NCBI RefSeq assembly: GCF_963675165.1
Contig: NC_087385.1
Span: 1,550,501-1,614,500, forward strand
From: Halichondria panicea
Taxonomy: Eukaryota > Porifera > Demospongiae > Suberitida > Halichondriidae
Length of the DNA stretch: 64,000 nucleotides
Direction: 5' to 3'
Positions within the stretch are counted from its first letter, which is position 1; each line of letters begins with the position of its first letter. The position numbers and the translations under genes are program-made. The notes beneath the pieces were generated by a model, which ran no database searches, was not told the origin of the DNA, and saw only the letters and a list, made by a program, of their open reading frames with translations. This document shows positions 2,340-57,500 of the stretch, piece after piece.

Positions 2340-3426
2340 ATCCAATTAAACCATTGTAAGGAATTTCTGTTTATGTAAGGAACTTTCAGAACATATACAC
2401 ACATGTGATGCATGCACATGCACCCATGCACATGCATGCATGTATAATTATACACAATGCGGACACTAATATTTTATTTGTAAGGAATTTCTTCTTACGT
2501 AAGGAACTTTCAGGCATACACACATGTGATGCACACCCATGTGTGATACACAATGAATAAAATTGGACACCATAATTTATTTGTAAGGAATTTCTCCTTA
2601 TGTAAGGAACTTTCAGGCATACACATGATGCACATGCACCCACATGTGATATACAATAAATTGGACACCATCATTTATTTGTAAGGAATTTCTCCTTATG
2701 TAAGGAACTTTCAGGCATACACACATGTGATGCACATGCACCCACATGTGATATACAATAAATTGGACACCATCATTTATTTGTAAGGAATTTCTCCTTA
2801 TGTAAGGAACTTTCAGGCATACACACATGTGATGCACATGCACCCACATGTGATATATACAATAAATTGGACACCATAATTTCTTTGTAAGGAATTTCTC
2901 CTTATGTAAGGAACTTTCAGGCATACACACATGCATGTGATGCACATGCACCCACATGTGATATATACAATAAATTGGACACCATAATTTATTTGTAAGG
3001 AATTTCTCCTTATGTAAGGAACTTTCAGGCATACACATGTGATGCACATGCACCCACATGTGATATACAATAAATTGGACACCATCATTTATTTGTAAGG
3101 AATTTCTCCTTATGTAAGGAACTTTGAGGCATACACACATGTGATGCACATGCACCCACATGTGATATACAATAAAATTGGACACCATAATTTATTTGTA
3201 AGGAATTTCTCCTTATGTAAGAAACTTTCAGGCATATACACATGTGATGCACACCCATGCATACATGCATGCACATGTGATACACAATACTTGTAAGGAA
3301 TTTCTCCTTATTGTAAGGAACTTTCAGGACATACACATGCATGCATGCATGCATATACAACGAAATTGCAACTATAATAATATTTGTAAGCAATTTCTCC
3401 TTATGTAAGGAACTGTCAGGGACATA

Positions 3427-23628: not shown

Positions 23629-32196
<8,568 letters not shown>

Positions 32197-54345: not shown

Positions 54346-54545
54346 NNNNNNNNNNNNNNNNNNNNNNNNNNNNNNNNNNNNNNNNNNNNNNNNNNNNNNN
54401 NNNNNNNNNNNNNNNNNNNNNNNNNNNNNNNNNNNNNNNNNNNNNNNNNNNNNNNNNNNNNNNNNNNNNNNNNNNNNNNNNNNNNNNNNNNNNNNNNNNN
54501 NNNNNNNNNNNNNNNNNNNNNNNNNNNNNNNNNNNNNNNNNNNNN
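54346..54545. other. assembly gap (200 N)
   Basis: Exactly 200 undetermined bases. The real distance may differ. The gap cuts off the 3' part of the C2-domain gene. Confidence 0.99.
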
Positions 54546-57500
54546 CGGTTGTGTGGGAGTGTTGGTGAAGCGTGGGGCTGGGGCTGGGGTTGGTCTGGAG
54601 GGAGTGGCGGACGGAGCAGGCGGAGGAGGCTGTGTGCGTGTGAGGTGTGTGTGTGAATCAGAGCTCACAACAATGGTATTATTCTGACACGCATACACAG
54701 TTAATGTAATCTAATGGTCTACATGTATGTGCAGAATGAGCACAACAATTACACAGCAAGGTGATAAATCATAAGTCAATGGTGAATCCTTGCTGAATAA
54801 AAGCTGACAACACCTGCACTAGAGTAGAGTACATGCTGATGACTATGGCTAAGAATAGTGTCCAGTCTTTTGTGTACACAGACAGTCACAAACATAACGT
54901 ACAGTGACAATGGCCCTCACCCTTGTTGGTGGTGTGGGTGCAACCGTCCTCGGTGCCGGAGTGGGCGTGACAATCCGGGGAGCAGGAGTAGGTGTGGTCA
55001 CCTGGGGTGTGGGTGGGCGTGACAATCCGGGGAGCAGGAGTAGGTGTGGTCACCTGGGGTGTGGGTGTGGCATTACTTGCCGTGGGAGTACGCGGTTGAG
55101 CCGAGGATGCACCCAAAGCACCTGCAGCAGTCACCATCACATCTGGCAACAAACTATTAATAGACGAGGTTCCGTTTTGACCTCCCGTGGCACCGAGAGG
55201 ATCGCTACTATTTCGTCTGTGTTCATCGGGCGTATCAAGGTCGAGGAGGTCAATCCCGTTGGTAGTAGCCGCTATGTCTGTGTCTGTCTGTGACTCAGTT
55301 TCTCCTGATGACTGGTGAAAGTTGAGATCGTTTAGTTCAAAGATAATGTCTCCACCTTTCGTGTTGGACTTCTCTTTTGTTAGAGGTAGTGACAGTTGGA
55401 GATTGTTTACTGTGATGAATGATGGGATCTGATTAATATACATGTACATGTGGTATATACACATGAAATAATATTGAACTCGGTGGAATTCTGAGAAGAG
55501 GTCACAACAAATGGTGATTGGAATCTCAAATAAAATCCCCTTTAGCCATACAAGTACCTGAGGTTAGAGAGCATACTGTACATGCACTACGTGCAGTTCT
55601 GTACAGTGTGTATACGTGCACCTTCCCAAGTAGACAACAACCATTGAACATACATGCTCACAATGAATCTACTTGGCAGGATGGGATGCTCAGAGTCAGC
55701 TGATGTGTGATATCACAAGGAAACCAACACTCAAACAAACATGCTCAAGCCTACAAAATCACATTACATTGACAATACAACGTGCTCTACATTTAAAGCG
55801 AAAACAAACATTCTAGCTCATGTATATACATGATACTGCAGTGTCCTTACAGCTGGGTCCGTGACGTGCGACGAGCTCCCCTAAATTGAAGATGGCCACT
55901 CCATAGTTGGTGCTGAAGAAGGAGGACTGACTGTTCACTATCAGCTGCACCTTGCTCGATGACGTCACCAGTCTGTGGAAAGAGGGAGGGGGAGGAATCA
56001 AGGAGCATGTGCACGATGTACGAGCTAAATACTGTGACTGTCAAAACAGACACAACATGTACTTCATTTTAGCGGTACACGTAGTACGTTGCCACAAAAC
56101 CCTTTGCAAAGCTTCACGAACGGAAATTCGAACCACACACCTGAAATCTATCAATCAGGAAACCTATCACGAAACTTAGCGAGCTACCAAAGTGCAAAGC
56201 TTTTTTACAACCTACACGTACTTGTAGATGTACCATAGACACACTACTCTGTCTACAGAGTTTAAGAGGAAACAATGGAGAGGGCATATCGAGCTGCACT
56301 AATGTAGAGGGTTGATTCAGTAAAATTGCAATTATGGCAGGAAATGGTGGGGTTCTGTGATGTGGCTCTATATGTAAATGCACTCCTGATAAAATCTATA
56401 TAGCAGTGTATAAATGGGGGACATTATATAGACCACACACACACAGATCAAGCTGCTAATTATCAGATAGGAAAAGCTGTTCATATTGACAGTGATAGTA
56501 TCATAATGAGGTAAATAATACAATGTACACGTACAAACGTACACTGCAGGTTGTACAAAGTTACACAGCTGTTGGTGTGCTTAGTAAGTATATACACACA
56601 TCAGATGCATGGTATGTTGGTATACAAGCTAGTGCTGTGCGACTGTGTACTCACAAGGTGAACTCTTCGTCCCAATTTGGGGTGGCGGTTTTCTTTAGAA
56701 CATCCGTCTTGATGTTACCCTTCTGACCGTCGACTACGACCTCACAGAACGGGTTACAACGCGACACTCCTATAGGTACAACACATATGTGCTTTGTATT
56801 TAATCAGTATACTTCCTTCCCAAACAGGTGTGCTTTAGCAGTTTACATGTAGGGTAGATACACTGTGCATGTAGGGTAGATACACTGTACATGTACATTG
56901 TAAGTGCACGTGTACAATTTCTTAATTGAGGAACTAAGAGGAAACACTGGAGGAACACACGTTATACATGTAACTAAAGTGAGAGCGGGATGCTAGCGTA
57001 TAGCGTTAAACATCAATTTACTCAGTATACAAACAGTAGTTATGTGCTAGTACAAAACCCGTTCGTATTGTGCAAATGATGACAACTTGCCTGACGTGTC
57101 CAGGCTGGCACTGATCACTGGGAGGAAAATATAATATTTTGGGTAGATTATTAATATGAACAAGATCAAGCAAGCAATACACCCAGTGTCAAGCATAATA
57201 CAGTGACTGGTGCAAGTATTGGTGAAAACACAACAAGAGCTTCAAAGACCCTTCATGTGTGCAATTAACTGTAGGGAGTGTACAAACATGTGCTCTACAC
57301 AGAATAAGTGCCTACTGTCCCTAGGCAACTGATGACAGTCACCTGTGCAACAACCTACTCAGTACCTTACAAGTACCTCAAAGCACTTCACTAATACTCT
57401 CAGAAAATCCTTTAAAGGTTACAAAGCTCAAAAACCTAACTCTGCTTCTGTCTAGGGAATACCAAACTAATCATCTTTGGATACTCTTAACTTATGAACC

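Follow-up and report, generated by a model that had tools for sequence, protein, structure and literature searches.

A candidate newborn intron in an exact 52-bp tandem duplication of a sponge C2-domain gene

In a 64,000-nt stretch of the Halichondria panicea genome (here termed the window), one coding exon of a C2-domain gene carries a 52-bp segment twice in tandem, with an AGGT in each copy. This raises the question of whether the extra copy is an intron, a frameshift mutation or an error of assembly. We propose, with a probability of about 0.4, that the locus holds an intron at or near its birth, gained by tandem duplication of a dual-specific AGGT site, and that this intron is spliced. In the mechanism that we envisage, 52 bp of the exon that encodes the Pro/Thr hinge of an ITCH/WWP-type gene would have been copied recently by a tandem duplication whose junction shows 3 bp of microhomology, the change running from one copy to two. 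The copied piece would bring with it CAG/GTGACC (a slash marks the splice junction), an AGGT site that may be read either as donor or as acceptor. The spliceosome would then use the first-copy GT as donor and the second-copy AG as acceptor, excising exactly 52 nt (55053-55002), and the mRNA and protein would remain as they were before the duplication.

An exact duplication in the hinge exon of a C2-domain gene

The host gene lies on the minus strand (Table 1), and one exon peptide matches Pfam C2 with an E value of 4.2e-06. When exon peptides were joined, the best match among PDB chains, over 97 residues, was ITCH (2nq3; E = 5.1e-05), followed by SMURF2 (E = 5.5e-04). The C2 domain thus appears closest to that of ITCH, and the gene is probably, as judged by this domain, of the ITCH/WWP type. 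Exon boundaries were taken from a spliced alignment with an ITCH C2 query, and the exon numbers are our own; the junctions of this model also agree with the C2 frame. A WWP1 C2 query scored 60 against 76 for ITCH and gave a different second intron, and the ITCH model was preferred.

Table 1 Features of the C2-domain gene and its surroundings (window coordinates)
Feature	Position	Strand	Evidence
Coding exon 2, aligned part, C2 domain	56655..56755	-	Pfam C2 (E = 4.2e-06), spliced alignment
Intron 2, 682 bp, phase 2	55973..56654	-	ITCH C2 spliced alignment
Coding exon 3, C2 domain	55851..55972	-	PDB match and spliced alignment
Intron 3, 441 bp, phase 1	55410..55850	-	ITCH C2 spliced alignment
Coding exon 4, C2 end and Pro/Thr hinge, 489 nt as assembled	54921..55409	-	Acceptor CATCACAG/TAA; donor AGG/GTGAGG, 7.55 bits
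52-bp unit, mRNA-5′ copy	55013..55064	-	Match extends 3 bp to 55067
Predicted 52-bp GT-AG intron, CCCCAG/GTGACC...CACCCCAG/GTGACC	55002..55053	-	Donor 4.79 bits, acceptor 5.70 bits, G+C 0.65
52-bp unit, mRNA-3′ copy	54961..55012	-	52/52 match to 55013-55064
Intron after exon 4, 291 bp, phase 0	54630..54920	-	Splice signals and frame; donor 7.55 bits, acceptor 11.32 bits
Exon 5 start, PPPPAPSATPSRPTPAPAPRFTNTPTQP, phase 0, open into gap	54546..54629	-	Frame and splice signals
Exactly 200 N in a row, within the gene	54346..54545		Read as scaffold gap
Pirin gene, one open frame, beyond the gap	54221-53271 (start = first likely ATG)	-	Pirin 1.2e-31, Pirin_C 2.9e-29

The perfect 52-bp tandem duplication that had been claimed from inspection of the sequence is present in the assembly, and the interval first given for it (54961-55066) is correct to within 1-2 bases. 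All 52 bases are identical between the two copies, and the identity continues for 3 bases past 55064; these 3 bp (GTG, or CAC on the complementary strand) constitute microhomology at the duplication junction. Each copy contains CAG/GTGACC once on the minus strand, giving a GT..AG pair 52 bp apart, just as the original prediction held. The locus therefore presents, in the assembly, a tandem duplication of exonic, AGGT-containing sequence of the kind from which AGGT intron gain starts. Tandem Repeats Finder reported a degenerate 27-bp period at the same site (63% matches), a context in which slippage would be expected. A search of the 131-Mb, 39-contig assembly for a 36-base core from the unit, with up to 3 mismatches allowed, hit two sites only. 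These sites are the copies themselves, which speaks against membership of the unit in a dispersed repeat family.

Other repeats were observed in the same material. The window contains a 47-bp tandem array at 29807-30291 (10.3 copies, 98% matches by Tandem Repeats Finder) and a 102-bp tandem array at 2461-3253 with additional, longer periods (312 and 414 bp). Between the exons of a NEDD4-like gene at another locus (L029, 6491-7375) lies a repetitive stretch in which several frames are open.

Without the extra copy, exon 4 is 437 nt long, ends in phase 0 and joins the exon at 54629 in phase (...QVTTPTPAPRIVTPTPAPRTVAPTPPTR), so that a single frame leads from the final strands of C2 through ...ATPTPQVTTPTPAPRIVTPTPAPRTVAPTPPTR and on into exon 5. 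By contrast, the exon as assembled leaves the Pro/Thr frame and reads ...THTPGDHTYSCSPDCHAHSG... and ...THTPGDHTYSCSPDCHAHSGTEDGC.... With the GT-AG intron 55053-55002 taken out, the coding sequence is, base for base, that of the exon before duplication, and the proposal that the Pro/Thr frame is lost unspliced, and kept in phase when spliced, is thus borne out. After the repeat, the combined share of P, T, A, R, V, S and Q, a residue set picked after the sequence had been seen, is 0.96 in the spliced frame versus 0.42 and 0.38 in the other two. Spliced and unspliced frames are both open as far as the gap downstream, and a stop in the unspliced form is therefore expected rather than seen.

The frame could also be rescued by a different splice, which we consider quite improbable. 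Removal of 55134-55002 (133 nt) restores the frame too, and its pairing of donor 55134 with the second-copy acceptor scores 10.71 bits versus 10.49 bits for the exact 52-nt removal. Alternatively, the donor at 55053 could be joined directly to the strong acceptor at 54629 (11.32 bits), phase 0 to phase 0, with loss of the end of exon 4. Both variants, however, lose hinge residues that the exact removal keeps, and in the second case the normal exon-4 donor at 54920 (7.55 bits) is stronger than that at 55053 (4.79 bits).

Splice signals, intron lengths and chance expectation

As a reference, introns were mapped with a purpose-written protein-to-DNA spliced aligner, by which 18 loci were aligned on both strands with three HECT queries. 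Fifteen HECT loci were kept, yielding 82 introns; L003 (no intron), L009 (the same gene as L029) and L006 (a near-copy of L005) were dropped. L013 and L046 are weakly aligned (scores 174 and 177), and L005 and L047 partially. A stricter set (n = 39) comprised 36 introns from six loci and the three of the C2 gene. The 82 introns range from 36 to 2336 bp, with a G+C content of 0.24-0.56 (median 0.40), and five are of 60 bp or less (36, 46, 49, 49 and 53). The two shortest are doubtful: the 36-bp intron (L039) is probably an alignment error, because GTGAGT follows its end, and the 46-bp intron has poor sites (1.4 bits). The 49-, 49- and 53-bp introns have fair to good sites (13.3, 11.1 and 15.3 bits, respectively). 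Among the introns mapped in this genome, 52 nt would thus be one of the shorter lengths, and the shortest intron of the stricter set measures 86 bp.

The statement that other introns here measure 48-62 bp was not confirmed and does not hold for the C2 gene, whose three placeable introns are far longer (Table 1). In the neighbouring kelch gene, for which no model was mapped, none of that size was seen by eye around two exon junctions. A search among the 82 mapped introns for older products of tandem duplication gave a best splice-region identity of 0.58 over 24 positions, and therefore none of them resembles the 52-bp case.

The predicted donor, CAG/GTGACC, ranks at the 23rd percentile among the mapped donors (53 of 755 exonic GTs are equally good), and the predicted acceptor, CACGCCCACCCACACCCCAG/GTG, at the 30th percentile of mapped acceptors (38 of 830 exonic AGs are equally good); their sum is at the 22nd percentile among the 82 introns. 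The donor is weak, carrying C at both +5 and +6; at +5, none of the 39 donors of the stricter set has C and 35 have G. Ranked within that set, the predicted donor exceeds 5 of 39, the acceptor 9 of 39 and the sum 5 of 39. The G+C content of the segment is exon-like, above that of all 82 mapped introns and all 39 of the stricter set. Pairs of this quality recur in coding DNA: the mapped exons, 13.7 kb in all, contain 1517 GT..AG pairs spaced 40-80 nt apart, of which 13, or about 1 per kb, match the predicted one (that is, the sum is at least as high and neither site is more than 1 bit lower). These 13 are presumably not spliced. Exon 4 itself has a higher-scoring pair in its C2-coding part (55355-55305), away from the repeat. 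Given such equally good pairs elsewhere, scores like this one are compatible with splicing without demonstrating it.

How often would a duplication yield such a pair by chance? When 52-bp duplications were simulated in the mapped exons (n = 6504), 14.3% contained AGGT and 0.94% gave a pair at least as good as the predicted one. Within exon 4 (385 simulated 52-bp duplications), the corresponding values were 51.7% and 6.0%, and five other unit lengths simulated in the same exon gave a pair this good in 2.1-7.5%. Chance alone therefore explains the splice signals poorly, though it has to be reckoned with.

These rates bear on a second explanation, which we regard as somewhat unlikely: the duplication is real but spliced hardly or not at all, and is a frameshift allele, probably heterozygous, that lies on the assembled haplotype by chance. 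Consistent with this idea, exact tandem duplications are common (34 rows with a period of 20-200 in 269 kb, made up of the window and loci L027-L047, some rows belonging to one array), and the splice signals of the 52-bp segment are weak and exon-like. In addition, the assembly offers no second haplotype for comparison, as a 321-bp query matched one place only, its own locus. However, a frameshift allele should be rare where 52 nt break the frame of a conserved-domain gene, an exact duplication of this type within a coding exon probably being unusual, and the simulations seldom produced so good an AGGT pair.

Besides the 52-bp case, AGGT occurs on the strand read in two of the 34 rows. One is a 44-bp exact array of ~3 copies (L032 992-1122; C17:5306992-5307122) in a gene that we take to be TELO2-like; it spans the end of an open stretch together with the donor AAG/GTAGCT, and its extra copies could land in an intron at no cost. 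The array thereby sets several candidate donors in a row. The other (L040 3618-3730) looks non-coding, as each of its six frames is interrupted by stops in the stretch inspected.

Taken together, two facts favour a newborn intron: a gene with a conserved domain shows a frame-breaking duplication at all, and this duplication holds a usable AGGT. The C at +5, the high G+C content and the nearby gap hold this reading back.

The scaffold gap and the missing half of the gene

The C2 gene is cut, 415 bp from the repeat, by a run of N that we take to be a scaffolder's placeholder, and a Pirin gene follows (Table 1). Near C9:1.6 Mb, where the gene lies, the WW/HECT half expected of an ITCH/WWP-type gene was not found among the scored matches of a HECT scan (95) and a WW scan (39) of the assembly and of an ITCH WW/HECT query (57), searches that score their best candidates only. 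This putative 3′ half may lie in the gap, be unassembled, have been missed or be absent. Since the gap is followed by Pirin without WW/HECT sequence, the missing stretch is probably several kb long, or the join is wrong. Candidates elsewhere were rejected. Three WW-HECT loci (C7:5.50 Mb, C7:173-177 kb and C17:5.30 Mb) each have their own C2-like exons, as judged by eye except for one tblastn match at C17, and at C14:304 kb the HECT gene, presumably HECW, has a WW-like stretch upstream.

The gap and the missing half both lend weight to a third explanation, that the repeat arose in assembly or sequencing, close to the end of a contig, and that the genome holds a single copy. The copies, being 100% identical, carry no independent mark of two copies either. 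Nevertheless, the repeat is short relative to long reads, if such reads were used; one sponge genome is described as built from HiFi reads with hifiasm, purge_dups and YaHS (PMC12181767). Furthermore, frames are open in the exons on the repeat side and in the Pirin gene past the gap, and other exact tandem arrays sit in N-free stretches. We regard an artefact as unlikely, and the newborn-intron reading supposes that the animal carries both copies.

Relation to known cases of intron gain

If the 52-bp segment is a new intron, it would conform to the model in which tandem duplication of an AGGT-containing exonic sequence creates an intron, a model that has been tested experimentally (Hellsten 2011, as described in PMC4974935 and PMC3443670). 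As those two accounts relate, the gain of an intron in vertebrate ATP2A1 was dated to nearly 500 million years ago and reproduced experimentally. In both genes an exonic AGGT is tandemly duplicated, a GT in one copy is followed by an AG in the next, and removal leaves the coding sequence unchanged. Unlike the old and experimentally reproduced ATP2A1 intron, the sponge copies are identical, and the intron is predicted.

Dual-specific splice sites in tandem repeats, with splicing shown, are described for human UBC and VCX3A (PMC10809524). As in those genes, each sponge unit has one AGGT that can serve as donor or acceptor, and the length of the intron is a multiple of the unit, a single unit for the predicted sponge intron. 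By contrast, retention leaves the frame intact for the UBC units and for 45 of the 77 human cases in that account, but not for the 52 nt; moreover, splicing is demonstrated in the human genes, whereas in the sponge it is predicted. The sponge duplication would thus be a further example of a dual-specific-site tandem repeat, with frame breakage as an extra constraint.

In Drosophila, 5 of 31 novel intron positions are traced to coding sequence that carried a proto-splice site and was duplicated in tandem (PMC2891723). There, too, coding DNA was locally duplicated and one copy intronised, as predicted in the sponge, but the Drosophila inference draws on a comparison of 12 genomes and ours on one assembly. 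The potato RdRp gene likewise gained an intron by recent tandem duplication, in that case across an intron-exon boundary, with splicing confirmed by 106 RNA-seq reads (PMC4974935). According to the same source, its acceptor, branch site and G+C difference came from an older intron, whereas the signals of the predicted sponge intron are all exonic.

Within the literature on intron gain by tandem duplication and AGGT sites, in sponges and with presence polymorphism, we found no report of this 52-bp case. A still stronger statement, that a spliceosomal intron has been caught at birth, with undiverged copies, signals derived entirely from coding sequence, a broken frame when unspliced and possibly a polymorphic presence, is a tentative one and on balance doubtful. 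If true, such an undiverged, frame-breaking case would offer a direct measure of how efficiently exonic sequence is spliced at the birth of an intron.
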